Assembly: GCA_938028665.1 (NCBI GenBank)
Contig: CALIMB010000039.1
Coordinates: 1 to 38,595, forward strand
Origin: an uncultured Thermomicrobium sp.
GTDB lineage: Bacteria > Chloroflexota > Chloroflexia > Thermomicrobiales > Thermomicrobiaceae
Length of the DNA: 38,595 nt
Direction: 5' to 3'
The position numbers and the translations under genes are program-made. Below, piece by piece: positions 9,765 through 18,017 of the stretch; the stretch's first letter is position 1, and each line of letters begins with the position of its first letter. Under the pieces are notes generated by a model that was not told the origin of the DNA, did not search any database, and worked only from the letters and a program-made list of their open reading frames with translations.

Positions 9765-10556
9765 ATGGCCAAAGGCAGAACCCAAGCGATCCAGGGATTG
9801 CTGATCGACGTCGACGGTGTCCTCCACGTCGACGGCGATCCCCTCCCCGGTGCAGCTGAGGCGCTGCAGCGCCTCAGCGCCCTCGGTATTCCCTACGTGC
9901 TCCTCACCAACACCACTATCCGTACCCGACGCCAACTGGGGGAACTCCTCCGCGCACTCAACTTTCCAGTGAGCGACGATCAAATCGTCACCGCCGGTAA
10001 TGCCACAGCTGCCTACCTCCGCACCTACTATCCTGACCAGCGGTGCTTCCTCCTCGTCGAGGGTGACGTACGTGAGGAGTTCTCTGGCCTCACCGTGGTC
10101 GAGGACGAGAGTGCCACCGTCGTCGTCCTCGGCGGCGCCGGCAGCGTCTACACGTACGACCGCCTGAACCTTGCTTTTCGTCTCCTCCTCCGCGGTGCAC
10201 ACTTCGTGGCCATGCACCGTAACCTCGTCTGGGAACGCCGCGACGGACCAGCACTCGACACCGACGCCTTCCTGATGGGACTGGAAGCTGCTACCGGCCG
10301 TCAGGCCCTTCTCGTCGGCAAGCCTTCCCCCAACTTCTTCCGTGCCGGAATTGCCCGCCTTGGCCTCCCAGCCGAGCGTATCGCCATGGTCGGTGATAGC
10401 CTCACTGCCGACATTACACCGGCTCAAGCGCTGGGGATGACCGGTATCCTCGTGCGCACCGGACGCTTCCGGCCCAGTGACCTCGAACACGGTCAGCCTG
10501 ACGTCATCCTCCCTTCCCTTGCTGAGCTCCCTGCCTGGCTCACCGGCATGCACTGA
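9765..10556 (+). CDS. HAD-superfamily IIA phosphatase (NagD/LHPP-like)
   Basis: Encodes 263 residues; ATG with GGCGGAGAG six bases upstream. HAD motif I is IDVDGVL near residue 11, where the first Asp is the nucleophile and the second the acid/base. Motif II is LLTNTT near residue 47. The conserved Lys is in VGKPSPNFF near 186, and motif IV is MVGDSLTADI near 209. Between motifs II and III is the large C2 cap of subclass IIA. The length is normal for NagD, pyridoxal/phosphoglycolate phosphatase and LHPP-like proteins, which hydrolyse small phosphate esters or phospho-amino groups in the cytosol. The order of motifs suggests the LHPP-type branch, but the substrate cannot be assigned. It is alone on its strand, convergent with the amine oxidase gene. 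Confidence 0.92.
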   Translation: MAKGRTQAIQGLLIDVDGVLHVDGDPLPGAAEALQRLSALGIPYVLLTNTTIRTRRQLGELLRALNFPVSDDQIVTAGNATAAYLRTYYPDQRCFLLVEGDVREEFSGLTVVEDESATVVVLGGAGSVYTYDRLNLAFRLLLRGAHFVAMHRNLVWERRDGPALDTDAFLMGLEAATGRQALLVGKPSPNFFRAGIARLGLPAERIAMVGDSLTADITPAQALGMTGILVRTGRFRPSDLEHGQPDVILPSLAELPAWLTGMH

Positions 10557-10745
10557 CCGGTAGTCGCTTCGTCAGCCTATCACCAAGCTCGCCCTTCCCT
10601 GATCTACCCCATCCTCACTGAGCCTCGCTCCCCAAGCCGCGGCACTGTTGCTATGACACAGGATGTTCAGCTGCAGCCGCTGAAGGTCATAGGCGTCCGT
10701 ACTCCTGTCGGAGCGACATCCAGCATGTTCTCCCCAGCCATTCCT

Positions 10746-13034: not shown

Positions 13035-13865
13035 TCACACGCCTCGCCGACCGTATGACCAGGCAAGCACGAGCCCCGTAAACAACCCCCCGCCCACGAT
13101 ATTCCCCAGCGTTGCTGGCACCTGATTCCACATCCACCACGTGCCCAAGCCGATCGGTGCTCCAGCGAGCATCCCGGCCGGAATGACAAACATGTTCACG
13201 ATTGAATGCTCATACCCAAGCCCGAAGAACGTCATAATCGGCAGCCACATCGCCGCAATCTTGCCTACTGTCGAGCGGGAACTGAAAGCCAGCATTGTTC
13301 CAACGGTCACAAGCCAGTTGGCCAGCACTGCCTTCGTGACCACAGTCATCCAGCCGCGCCACCCTTCCTCCAAATAGGCTACCGTCTTACTCAGCGCAAG
13401 TTGGCGTAGCTGCTCCCCCACCACGCCAGAGTCATGACTCCACCAGCCGGTGAGAGCGGCCACCGCAAGCACCGCAAAAGCAGTACCCCCAACCAAGTTG
13501 CCAAGATAGACCCACCACCAGTTGCGACCAACCGCTGCAGCATCCAGCCGTCCCGCATACCAACCTGCCGGGAGTAGAGCAAAATTACCAGTCGCTAGCT
13601 CCAGCCCCAACAAGACCAGCATACAGAACCCCACGGGGAAGATCAGCGCGCCAACAATTCGTGGCAACCCCTGCGCCCAAGCCGTCACCGCCAGCAGCGT
13701 CGCCGCAGCCAGAAGTGCCCCACTCAGTGCACCACGGACAACCATCGGTGTGACCGCAAGCTGTGCCTTGCGCTCGCTGGCCTCTAGTGCGGCCGAAACC
13801 AGTTCATACGGGCTTACCGCGTCACCCAGCGCCGCTTCACGATGGAGTGTTGCCTGCTCTCGCAT
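13035..13865 (-). CDS. Formate/nitrite transporter (FNT) family channel
   Basis: Encodes 276 residues. The ATG at 13865 is preceded by AAGGGGG; the longer TTG start is less likely. About six membrane helices are visible. Family features: the N-terminal amphipathic segment (SPYELVSAALEASERKAQL), GALSGALLAAATLL in helix 1, LGLELATGNFALLPAG around helix 2/3, VYLGNLVGGTAFAVL in the third region, and GYEHSIVNMFVIPAGMLAG containing the central His and Asn of FNT pores. FNT proteins are pentameric inner-membrane channels for formate, nitrite or hydrosulfide. Specificity cannot be read directly. The neighbouring candidate nitric oxide reductase makes nitrite attractive, but that is inference. It starts the FNT-ctaG-amine oxidase transcript, after a hairpin that separates it from the heme-copper genes. 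Confidence 0.9.
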   Translation of the reverse strand: MREQATLHREAALGDAVSPYELVSAALEASERKAQLAVTPMVVRGALSGALLAAATLLAVTAWAQGLPRIVGALIFPVGFCMLVLLGLELATGNFALLPAGWYAGRLDAAAVGRNWWWVYLGNLVGGTAFAVLAVAALTGWWSHDSGVVGEQLRQLALSKTVAYLEEGWRGWMTVVTKAVLANWLVTVGTMLAFSSRSTVGKIAAMWLPIMTFFGLGYEHSIVNMFVIPAGMLAGAPIGLGTWWMWNQVPATLGNIVGGGLFTGLVLAWSYGRRGV

Positions 13866-14195
13866 CGATGCCCCCTTGTCGCTTGCAGACAACGCCGCGT
13901 GCAGTAGTCGAAGATTTAGTCACCGCCAATGGTTGTGCCGGCACTGCCTCGCCGTGGTGAGCACAAGACGGCCGTGACATGCTCTGTGCAAGACTCTCGA
14001 TTGGCTCTTGGATGCATCCGGCCCCATGGTACCGTACGCGCCGTGTGCTGTGGATCGGTGAACAGGCTCATGCTCTCGGACAGCATGGAAGCAACTGGGA
14101 AGACGGCTTGCCGAGATCATAAGTAAGAGGGTGAGGGAGTCAGGCCCAGCACCGCTCCGTCGCCAGACTCCCTCCGCCCGTCCGAACTCCAGACC
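13866..14195. other. Intergenic region between heme-copper operon and FNT operon
   Basis: 330 bases. It contains the long hairpin at 14133-14174 just after the catalytic-subunit stop; the rest should hold the promoter of the FNT gene on the minus strand. No small gene is visible on either strand. Confidence 0.45.
14133..14174 (-). terminator. Candidate terminator of the heme-copper operon
   Basis: GAGGGAGTC at 14133-14141 pairs perfectly with GACTCCCTC at 14166-14174. After one mismatch the stem continues with three more pairs (GGC/GCC), leaving a loop of about 16 nt. It lies 21 bases beyond the stop codon of the catalytic subunit on the minus strand. The downstream minus-strand tail (CCTCTTACTT) is pyrimidine-rich rather than a T-run. 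Confidence 0.5.
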
Positions 14196-15680
14196 TTAGT
14201 CGTCGGAACCGGCTGCCGGAGCCGGCGCCCGCCACGCAGCAGGAATTGCCCGCAGAGAAAGGAACAGCAGCCCCAGGAAGGCAATACCGAGCAACAGGAC
14301 AAACGGGACGGCTAACTGCGCAAGAGGATGCCAGGCGGCAATATGCTCGGCGTACCGCCGCGGCACGCTCTGGAGTCCAGATAGGAAGAACGCCACAACA
14401 AATCCACCAGCTCCAATCGCATACAACCAACTGAGCCAGCGGGCAGCAGGAGTGGTTACCCATCCCTCACTCCCGCCCAGTGTGTGGAACAGATATGCCC
14501 AGGTAAAGCCGGCGGCCCCAAAAAGGTAGTAGGAGTGGAAGTGGGCCGGTACCCACAAGGTGTTGTGCATCACGTTGTTGATCGCAATCGTTCCGTCGAG
14601 CACTGCCGCCACACCTCCAGCAACCCACCCCCAGAGTCCGGCCAAAATGAAGATCACGGGAGCTGACCACCGTACCTGAGAGCCGTAGAGATAGCCAAGA
14701 CTCCCGACGATGGTCACAAAGAAGGCCGGTACACCGACCGCATAGGAACCAAACTGGCCGATTAGGTGCAACGGCCATGGTTGCACAAAGTCTTGATAGA
14801 GATGGTGGAAATACGGCAACAGAACCAAGATGATCACCAAATTAAACGCTAATGCGACTGGGAAGCCCATCTTGAACATACGCCCCGTGTAAGCACCAAG
14901 AGTGGCGTACACCAAGGCAACTGCAAGGTAAATATTCAAGTTCACCAGAGTGTGCCCAAAGAGGAATAACATATTTTTCGCGAACAGAACGTCGAATCCG
15001 TCGACCAGCCCCAGCATCTGCGCAAAGATCGGCACAAGATAAACGACGCCCGCACCAACCGCGATCACCCCATCAATCGCCACCACCGTTGCAGCTAGCT
15101 CCGGCCCGGTCGGCAACGGCCGCTCTGTCTTTCGCCCAAAGAGCACGGGCCAGGCAAGGGCATTTCCCAACCCCCCGAAGGCCCGCACCGCTCCAAAGAG
15201 CACTGCCACACACCACAGCAAGAAGGCGACCGCGACGAGTGTATATCCCAGAAGAAAACCCCACGTCGCACTCATCGGCCAGTCACCACGGACTGGCAAG
15301 GGGTAGGTCGTTGTCCATCCGGCAGCAAAGCCACCCACCAGTGTGGCCAAAATAACCAACCCTGAGCCAAGGAAGTACACGACAAACGCCGTCCACAGAA
15401 GTCGCGGACTAAGCCCGATACGCGGCGCAATGACCCGCGCCACCCCGCCAAGCGACGCCAGGAGCACCCCAGCAACCATACCCGCCCCATGCAGGGTCAT
15501 GATCCGATAAAACCACCGTGGACCCAGGTCTATCCACCCAGCATGCTGCAACCGCATGAGCAACCCTAGAAGGCCCATCAATAAAAAGACTGCAAAGCCG
15601 ACCAGCATATACACCAGGGTTGCCTGTTCAACTGAGCGTTGTGCCTGCGCACTGTTCCCGTTGCCAACCTGTCCCGCCAT
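14196..15680 (-). CDS. Heme-copper oxidoreductase catalytic subunit, B-family-like, lacking the crosslinked Tyr: candidate CuA-type nitric oxide reductase
   Basis: Encodes 494 residues, about 12-13 membrane helices; ATG at 15680 with GAGGTAGG upstream. Aligned by eye to Thermus ba3 oxidase subunit I, all metal ligands are present: His64 (LHGAGM) and His382 for the low-spin heme, His380 (WVPAHFH) for the active-site heme, and His243, His292 and His293 (FGHTLVN; YFHHLYQ) for CuB. In oxygen reductases the residue four after the first CuB His is the Tyr crosslinked to it (GHPxVY). Here it is Asn247. No Tyr elsewhere obviously replaces it. Nitric oxide reductases lack this Tyr, and NorY-type (sNOR) enzymes pair such a subunit with a CuA subunit, as here. 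A pipeline would call it cytochrome c oxidase subunit I. I favour NO reduction (2 NO to N2O); substrate unproven. Confidence 0.9.
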   Translation of the reverse strand: MAGQVGNGNSAQAQRSVEQATLVYMLVGFAVFLLMGLLGLLMRLQHAGWIDLGPRWFYRIMTLHGAGMVAGVLLASLGGVARVIAPRIGLSPRLLWTAFVVYFLGSGLVILATLVGGFAAGWTTTYPLPVRGDWPMSATWGFLLGYTLVAVAFLLWCVAVLFGAVRAFGGLGNALAWPVLFGRKTERPLPTGPELAATVVAIDGVIAVGAGVVYLVPIFAQMLGLVDGFDVLFAKNMLFLFGHTLVNLNIYLAVALVYATLGAYTGRMFKMGFPVALAFNLVIILVLLPYFHHLYQDFVQPWPLHLIGQFGSYAVGVPAFFVTIVGSLGYLYGSQVRWSAPVIFILAGLWGWVAGGVAAVLDGTIAINNVMHNTLWVPAHFHSYYLFGAAGFTWAYLFHTLGGSEGWVTTPAARWLSWLYAIGAGGFVVAFFLSGLQSVPRRYAEHIAAWHPLAQLAVPFVLLLGIAFLGLLFLSLRAIPAAWRAPAPAAGSDD

Positions 15681-15698: not shown

Positions 15699-16220
15699 TC
15701 ACTGCACGGTAAACTCCGCCACCATCAGGTGGTGACCAGTTGCGCAGAATTCCAGGCAACGAATCGTGTAGGTTCCAGGTTCATCAAACCGGTAGAGCAG
15801 TCGATTCGTGTAACCCGGCATCGCTTGTACCTGCGTCACAATCCGCCCATCTGGCGCGTAGATACCAAACCCATGGTTGACATCGACTGCCCGGACGACA
15901 AACTCCACCGTCTGGCCACGCGGAATCGTCTTCTGGCTCAGCTCCCATGCCCACATCCGTCCAGTCACCTCGACCGTTACCTGGGGAGGTCCAAGCCGCG
16001 CTGCTCGACTTGATGGATATGGCAAAAACGGAAGAGACAGCAGAAACGCCAGAGCAAGGACCACCACGATAAGCAGCGTTCCCCACCGCCGTAGGCGTGT
16101 CACCACTGCACTGATTCCCTCATACGGAACCAAGACGCTAGCACGGGTTGCGACCCACCACAGGATCGCTGTCCAGAGCAATAGGAAGACGAAGAACACC
16201 ACCCCGACTCCTACCAACAT
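15699..16220 (-). CDS. Heme-copper oxidoreductase subunit II with complete CuA site
   Basis: Encodes 173 residues; ATG with AAGGAGGGG upstream. Two N-terminal membrane helices (about 2-23 and 46-67) anchor a periplasmic-side cupredoxin domain. All CuA ligands are visible: His116 (DVNHGFGIY), then Cys155, Glu157, Cys159, His163 and Met166 in CLEFCATGHHLM. Aromatic residues in GRMWAWEL are the usual electron entry patch. It transfers electrons from a soluble donor (cytochrome c or a blue copper protein) to the low-spin heme of the catalytic subunit, whose gene begins 18 bases downstream. The canonical Gly after the second Cys is Ala (CATGHH instead of CGxxH). In CuA-containing NO reductases this subunit corresponds to NorS; in ba3 oxidases to CbaB. 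It is first in its operon. Confidence 0.93.
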   Translation of the reverse strand: MLVGVGVVFFVFLLLWTAILWWVATRASVLVPYEGISAVVTRLRRWGTLLIVVVLALAFLLSLPFLPYPSSRAARLGPPQVTVEVTGRMWAWELSQKTIPRGQTVEFVVRAVDVNHGFGIYAPDGRIVTQVQAMPGYTNRLLYRFDEPGTYTIRCLEFCATGHHLMVAEFTVQ

Positions 16221-18017
16221 CCCGCCCCTCCTTCGCAGACCGGCCTTAGTGCACCCCTGATACGCAAAATCCTCAACTTCGCTGTATTCGTTGTTTCTTG
16301 ACTATGTCTGATCGCTACTATTCTAAGACGCGAGACGTGCTTCCGCAAGACATCCGTCGAGATTCTCTCTCGCTTCCACATCCCCACCCGCCTTCATCCC
16401 AGTTCGGCCAGCCGTTCCAATTCCCGCGCCCGCGTGTGTGAGATGCTTTTCTGATCCCAATTTCATTCACCGAACCAGCGTGCCCGAAAACGCTACCCAC
16501 CAGTAGGTCGTTCTCTCCACAGCCATGCGCGTGCTCCCATGGGCAAGCAGAAGTGGCAGGGATTTTGCGGAACTTGCTGTTCTTCCATTGTTCTTCCACA
16601 CCCGGCTCTCACGCTTTCCCACGACCGACCCCGTACTAGGCCTTCCCCCGCCACCCTGACCTCGGAGCAAACCCCGGAACTCCCAGCTCTTGAGGCTGCT
16701 CTGGCAGCTCCAGGCGCTTCAGCACAGCCTCAACAGGAACGGGCTCTTGCCGTTGCTGCAGCTCACCCTCACCCCGACTTGCTTTGCAGCCAGCACACCA
16801 AGCGATTCACCACTGCGCCCCTCCCTGCCCACCACAGCTACGGGTGTCTCAGTAATCCCCGGCTCGTTGCGCTTTTTTGTACGGTTCTCTCCTCAGACCA
16901 GCCTGTCTCCTGACCATTCCGCACGCGTCTTTTCGGAGCCGACTCTTCTCCCTTGCCCCTTGACTGTGGAATGCTGCTCAAGTCACGGGCTGAGCCATCT
17001 CTGGGGTCACCGAAGATCACGCTCACACACATGCCATCGAGCACCAACGCTGTACCCAGCGCCTGGCCCCACACTCCCGAGCGTGAAGTGGCCGGGGACC
17101 CAGTTATCCAGCATCTCGTCGATGCCTCAGCGCTGAATCCTGCAGCGGTACCGCACATCGTGCCCGCTTTAGGCTTCACACAAGCACTGAGAGCAACGTC
17201 AGAACCGAATCTGGCTTATTGCTTTGCGTGCACACGCTGGGTTGGTATCTCAACGAAAAGCACTTCCAACCGAGACAGTCTCTCGAACGACCCCCCGAGG
17301 GGGTTCAGGGACACGCGTGGGCAGCAACCTCTCGTGCTTCGACTCCGGAATTCATCTTCTTTGCCGCGCTGACCACGCCCGAGAGTGTTTCTCCGGTCGC
17401 CAAAACCCCTCACTCCACAGCCGTGACCGCTCGCAGCGACGAGCATCTTTCCCCATTGCGACTATGCTGCTACTCGATCACGCTCCCATCCTCGCTCACC
17501 GTAGCCGAACACGCACTCTTGACCGTCCAGTGACGTCTAACAGACCTCGGCCCGTCTACGAGTCTTGGTTGCATCTCGCATCTGCTCCATCGATCGGTCA
17601 CCGTCTGTCTGGACGGTTGGGCGTGTGCGAGGCGAGGACGCAAGCTCACCTCGCGGTGGATCAGTCTGGTGTTTGGCTGCACCACACCCAGCCTCTCGAC
17701 GCCGTCCTCGAGCACCCGTCTTGACCATACCGCACCACGGAAGCCGCATTGCTGGGTCACGGGCGCAACACGAATCTCTCTGCACACCTCGTCGGACGGC
17801 GTATTCCCGCTCTGACGTAGGCTGAGAGGCTCACGCTCCACCGTCCCACCAGGTGCTTGCTAGTGCTCCAACGCAACGCTTCACAACAGCCAACTGTCCC
17901 ATGGGCGCAGAAGTTCGCACGCGTCAGGCAAATCATGCGCCGAAACAAAGCTCTGGGGACATCCCCTAACCAACCTGGGCTCATGCCGATCGGCTGAGGC
18001 GGTACTCCACCCCTTCT
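16221..18017. other. 1.8-kb region without a convincing gene
   Basis: The left 100 bases should carry the promoter of the heme-copper operon (minus strand, relatively AT-rich around 16260-16325), though I cannot fix hexamers. The rest has many short frames on both strands, none with a good ribosome binding site plus protein-like content. The least bad are minus-strand frames at 17470-17841 (123 residues) and a short one near 16640-16830 encoding an amphipathic stretch with VEAVLKRLELPEQPQELG. Small perfect hairpins occur at 17290-17304 (ACCCCC/GGGGGT, 3-nt loop) and 17600-17617 (ACCGTC/GACGGT, 6-nt loop). It may be decayed coding DNA. Confidence 0.4.

Follow-up and report, generated by a model that had tools for sequence, protein, structure and literature searches.

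A probable sNOR-type (NorS-NorY) nitric oxide reductase encoded by an uncultured Thermomicrobium

Genes at the locus

The window analysed here is the whole stretch of 38,595 nucleotides from an uncultured Thermomicrobium sp. (contig CALIMB010000039.1), and the gene under study encodes a norY-like catalytic subunit I of 494 aa at positions 14196-15680. The preliminary description of this DNA had the coordinates exactly right but gave no strand, which is corrected here: the gene lies on the minus strand, and the plus strand of the same interval is full of stops in the ORF check. The translated protein matches Pfam COX1 at 6.4e-42, and NCBIfam returned a weak CtaD match, far under the cut-off.

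Adjoining norY directly upstream is a norS-like gene (15699-16220, minus strand) for a CuA subunit II of 173 aa, in which two N-terminal hydrophobic transmembrane helices precede a cupredoxin domain. Its translation carries the CuA motif CLEFCATGHHLM (C155, C159, H163 and M166; 15723-15758, minus strand), which follows the pattern CxExCxxxHxxM, with H116 as a further ligand. The pairing of a CuA subunit II with a tyrosine-less subunit I, which had been proposed as the NorSY arrangement, is thus present in the window.

On the 3' side of norY, likewise on the minus strand, follow a formate/nitrite (FNT) family transporter (13035-13892, by domain match), probably in the same transcription unit as the sNOR genes, a Caa3_CtaG-type assembly factor (PF09678, 12122-13189, by domain match) and an amine oxidase. 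Because the PF09678 domain begins only around residue 102 in the ORF as listed, the true start of the CtaG-type gene is probably internal. A Caa3_CtaG factor adjoins norY in two other Chloroflexota as well. In the case of the FNT transporter, the gene adjoins sNOR not only in Thermomicrobium but also in two members of the Rhodobacterales (L018, 10563-11381; L019, 10531-11322), with 26-27% identity between the Thermomicrobium protein and these two; at three other sNOR loci of Chloroflexota no such gene was found. An FNT gene is part of the sNOR clusters of Ruegeria pomeroyi and Parasedimentitalea, which are also adjoined by a divergent Rrf2-type regulator; the Rrf2 family includes the NO sensor NsrR. 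The FNT gene next to sNOR could possibly tie nitrite or a related anion to NO metabolism. The window cluster differs from known sNOR clusters in that no SCO/SenC gene, usual in these clusters, was seen in it, a Caa3_CtaG factor being there instead, and no Rrf2 regulator was recognised next to its sNOR genes.

Between the aminotransferase gene and norS, about 1.8 kb (16221-18017) are without a convincing gene, where relatives have about 0.5-0.8 kb. At the nucleotide level this upstream DNA matched neither relatives nor plasmids, and Rfam gave no match within the window.

Catalytic residues and architecture

Translation confirmed all six haem and CuB histidines at the residue numbers claimed for them. 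Alignment assigns His64 (15489-15491) to the low-spin haem and His292-His293 (14802-14807) to CuB, and the roles of His380 at the high-spin haem and His382 at the low-spin haem (His380-Phe-His382, 14535-14543) follow from alignment with Thermus ba3; all of these codons lie on the minus strand. The remaining CuB ligand, His243, stands in the helix VI motif FGHTLVN, whose codons G242 to N247 were placed at 14940-14957 (minus strand) by arithmetic from the ORF. Four residues after His243, Asn247 occupies the place of the cross-linked tyrosine, as had been noticed beforehand, and it is invariant across the sNOR homologues.

We also looked for a tyrosine that might replace the missing one. The site used by cbb3 oxidases, which we place, following the P. 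stutzeri structure, in helix VII and six positions ahead of the HH pair, is V286 in the window protein, and the alignment has an invariant Val there across sNORs. Tyr251, at His243+8, is invariant in sNOR, and the other families have no Tyr at that column. Since it is two helical turns further on in that helix, a cross-link to His243 should be out of its reach. Placement among the ba3 oxidases together with a Tyr from another helix, which would have spoken for an oxidase, was searched for and not found.

Along the Thermus K-path, five of the seven residues are lost in the alignment (Y237 to N, Y244 to V, S261 to M, S309 to A, and T312, which falls in a gap), and the equivalents of Y248 and T315 remain. 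Judged from the aligned sequences, this loss appears in line with the published entry for sNOR, which lists N as active-site residue, no proton channel, and Silicibacter (now Ruegeria) as a member (PMC8756737, Table A4).

The predicted model of the norY protein shows 12 long helices in a haem-copper fold (pLDDT 79, pTM 0.85), and it is weak near the active site, where residues 377-379 fall below 50 and residues 290-299 lie around 53. Fold searches ranked oxidases of the A-, B- and C-families near one another and therefore do not discriminate between families. The likeness to cbb3 oxidase is one of fold only (Z of 32.5 to 3mk7), as the window pair has CuA rather than haem c subunits and no helix VII Tyr. 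With Thermus ba3 the protein shares the overall fold, the six histidines and a CuA subunit II at about 22% identity, and it differs by the substitutions above and by its separate clade. Altogether, the architecture of the pair (494 aa and 12 modelled helices in subunit I, two hydrophobic helices in subunit II) matches that of 'qCuANOR type II' and not that of bNOR. This type was described from B. azotoformans and Geobacillus with a Tyr to Asn exchange, a short 12-helix subunit I and a two-TM subunit II (PMC3475470).

Homologues and phylogenetic placement

Ten sNOR sequences, from several Chloroflexota lineages and one alphaproteobacterium, were aligned. These homologues are 32-93% identical to the window protein, and Asn247 and the six histidines are invariant, as are Ile250, Tyr251, Tyr258, the HHLxQD pattern and Tyr384. 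The motifs GHxxxNxxIYxA and HHLxQD hold out to R. pomeroyi, whose protein is only 34-36% identical to Thermomicrobium norY. The Asn247 column holds Tyr in all aligned B-family oxidases (Thermus and Chloroflexota) and Gln in all eNOR-like proteins.

The closest relatives are those of Thermomicrobium sp. CFH 73360 (93%), SKW109 (84%) and T. roseum (about 83%). With the window protein as query, nine of 400 Chloroflexota genomes matched at <=1e-30, in a patchy spread. The R. pomeroyi query recovered seven Chloroflexota genomes, all within those nine and without the pseudogene fragment described below, and no further Chloroflexota genomes at 1e-20. A tblastn search of plasmids added two more homologues, both from Rhodobacterales.

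In T. roseum the gene order is the same as in the window: mutL, mutS, aminotransferase, subunit II, subunit I, FNT, CtaG and FAD oxidoreductase. There the locus lies on a 918 kb megaplasmid, and the window probably sits on an equivalent replicon. The T. roseum NorSY pair has the accessions WP_012642720/WP_012643266, and its subunit I, the orthologue of the window protein, is annotated as 'cbb3-type cytochrome c oxidase subunit I'. Thus, the expectation that automated annotation would label such a gene as an oxygen-reducing oxidase held, and the particular name foreseen, ba3, did not.

In the LG+C20 tree, which had R. pomeroyi as its one named sNOR reference and contained no bNOR, gNOR or nNOR sequences, the sNOR rows including R. 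pomeroyi form one clade (support 100/99). The B-family O2 reductases form a separate clade (99/98) and the eNOR rows a clade of 13 (100/100). The sNOR clade still received 100/100 once the stretch with the diagnostic motif (residues 231-300) had been taken out. A tree in which the Thermomicrobium proteins were constrained to join the B-family O2 reductases was 112 log units worse (p-AU 1.8e-57). The alignment and tree suggested as a check thus place the window protein outside both the ba3 oxidases and eNOR, with R. pomeroyi. Because R. pomeroyi and Thermus have long branches, we make no claim on how the families are related at greater depth.

Several known families could be set aside in this way. 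A B-family (ba3) O2 reductase is rejected by Asn at His+4 and by the AU test, eNOR by Asn instead of Gln at His+4 and its separate clade, cNOR/qNOR (Glu at His+4 with FeB) by the Asn, and a C-family (cbb3) oxidase by V286 at the helix VII Tyr position.

The preliminary assignment to sNOR/NorSY is borne out by motif, gene pairing, helix count, channel-residue loss, the clade with R. pomeroyi and the AU test. On the strength of these sequence features, judged by criteria drawn from PMC8756737, PMC3475470, PMC11388526 and PMC6967387, the window pair can be regarded as a well-supported member of sNOR (NorSY-type), a family of predicted NO reductases. It resembles the systems of Nitrosomonas, Nitrococcus and R. 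pomeroyi and 'qCuANOR type II' in having Asn at His+4, an upstream CuA gene, 12- and two-helix subunits and no intact K-channel, and the FNT gene recurs in the R. pomeroyi cluster. The Tyr to Asn sNOR family itself has for years been described and catalogued in the literature, so that the window gene adds one more member to it, which is new or has only now been recognised. No paper linking Thermomicrobium and sNOR was found in a limited literature search, and one may exist.

Haem-copper proteins and nitrogen genes of the host

COX1-type proteins number five in the host genome. Two are oxidases, one of the A-family and one of ba3 type that has the Tyr; the others are the window sNOR, an eNOR-like protein with Gln and a Glu-type protein. 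The eNOR-like subunit I (L003; G000:C12:17932-19668) has Gln at His+4 (GHGAQQV) and occurs in the four Thermomicrobium genomes searched. Like the enzyme predicted from the window, eNOR is a CuA-linked, B-family-related NO reductase, so that sNOR is not the sole NO-reductase candidate of the host.

The Glu-type protein (L037/L089; G000:C11:1-1995) is a haem-copper-like subunit I that is linked to CuA and whose His+4 residue is Glu (FAHNLMEAMG). As 'TAHTM' replaces HxH in it, a Met may be a ligand of its low-spin haem. Conservation of the Glu/TAHTM pattern extends to a congener (91%; L090 in G126) and to another Chloroflexota family (57%; L091 in G276), and this type of subunit I was found in only 3 of 301 genomes.

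Regarding nitrogen genes, the host encodes NarG (1496 bits) and clade II NosZ (927 bits). NirS was not found in the host genome, and for NirK nothing scored above the cut-off there, the best match being a multicopper oxidase. Going by its gene content, the host seems capable of reducing NO to N2.

Proposed function and alternative readings

We consider it likely, from the sequence features described, that the window enzyme is an sNOR (NorS-NorY) membrane nitric oxide reductase. Electrons would pass from a cytochrome c or cupredoxin on the periplasmic side to CuA of subunit II, reach the low-spin haem (His64/His382) and proceed to the site formed by the high-spin haem (His380) and CuB (His243, His292, His293). 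There, two NO molecules would be joined: 2 NO + 2 e- + 2 H+ -> N2O + H2O. The NORs of the haem-copper superfamily have E, Q, D or N replacing the Tyr (PMC3475470), and for this reason the window site most likely reduces NO. Without the His-Tyr cofactor, the site would miss the extra reducing equivalent used for one-step O2 splitting, which would suit it to NO reduction. Since most of the cytoplasmic K-channel is gone, protons probably come from outside, and therefore the reaction is likely not proton-pumping. In the cell, the enzyme may remove NO, or complete the path from NO over N2O to N2 with clade II NosZ. Substrate, electron donor and proton route are in this way what we infer from the protein; the literature searched contained no sNOR that had been purified and assayed.

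The literature itself gives two views of the family, citing indirect support for NO reduction in Nitrococcus and arguing for an O2-scavenging role in Nitrosomonas (PMC6967387). Following the proposal for the N. europaea sNOR, the window enzyme could be a high-affinity O2 reductase without the cross-linked Tyr and with NO reduction as a side activity. Transcripts of the N. europaea sNOR rise 2.7- to 10.8-fold under O2 limitation, its site is thought to hold CuB (PMC6967387), and the lack of a recognised NirK or NirS in the host points in the same direction. Against this stand the Tyr kept by all aligned B-family O2 reducers and lacking in sNOR at both the B-family and the cbb3 position, the Tyr-bearing A-family and ba3 oxidases that the host already has, and the Rrf2-type regulator beside proteobacterial sNOR. 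We therefore regard this reading as unlikely. It is more doubtful still that sNOR would be mainly a true O2 reductase, perhaps with Tyr251, one turn below Asn247, as electron or proton donor; if so, O2 splitting would be possible without the His-Tyr cofactor, contrary to the rule.

The two other readings concern identity rather than substrate. A bNOR (formerly CuANOR, type I) would also combine the Tyr to Asn exchange with a CuA subunit (PMC3475470). PMC11388526 treats bNOR and sNOR as separate and points out that KEGG names both coxA. However, bNOR has a longer subunit I with 13 helices and a one-TM subunit II, against 12 and two in the window pair, it is reported only from Bacillota (PMC11388526), and the window protein groups with R. 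pomeroyi, in a tree without bNOR sequences. This makes a bNOR very improbable. Least credible is a degenerate ba3 oxidase that lost its Tyr by drift in a dying gene. The broken norY of congener G126 would be in keeping with it, but the window gene and four congener copies are intact at 83-93% identity with all ligands retained, the Asn is invariant across phyla and the AU test rejects a ba3 placement.

The result corrects an annotation error: such genes of Thermomicrobium and other Chloroflexota, labelled as cytochrome c oxidases, are probably NO reductases, so that surveys relying on cNOR/qNOR overlook possible N2O producers. Furthermore, a thermophilic sNOR may be a stable target for purification and structure determination in a family whose substrate is debated.

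Variation of the gene pair in relatives

At the corresponding locus of congener G126 (L031, C2, about 10100-10610), norY is present only as fragments covering residues of about 316-484. The locus retains the aminotransferase, FNT (83% identical) and amine oxidase genes, ctaG matches in pieces, and norS was not detected there. This pseudogene offers a natural loss case for physiological comparison.

In the case of Parasedimentitalea marina pW43B (L019), the norY homologue at about 8001-9358 matches in two pieces with no gene listed, and for this reason it may be frameshifted in the record. In another genome (L034; G129:C290:1710-6650), an sNOR pair stands head to head with an eNOR-like pair within 8.8 kb, each with its own CuA subunit.
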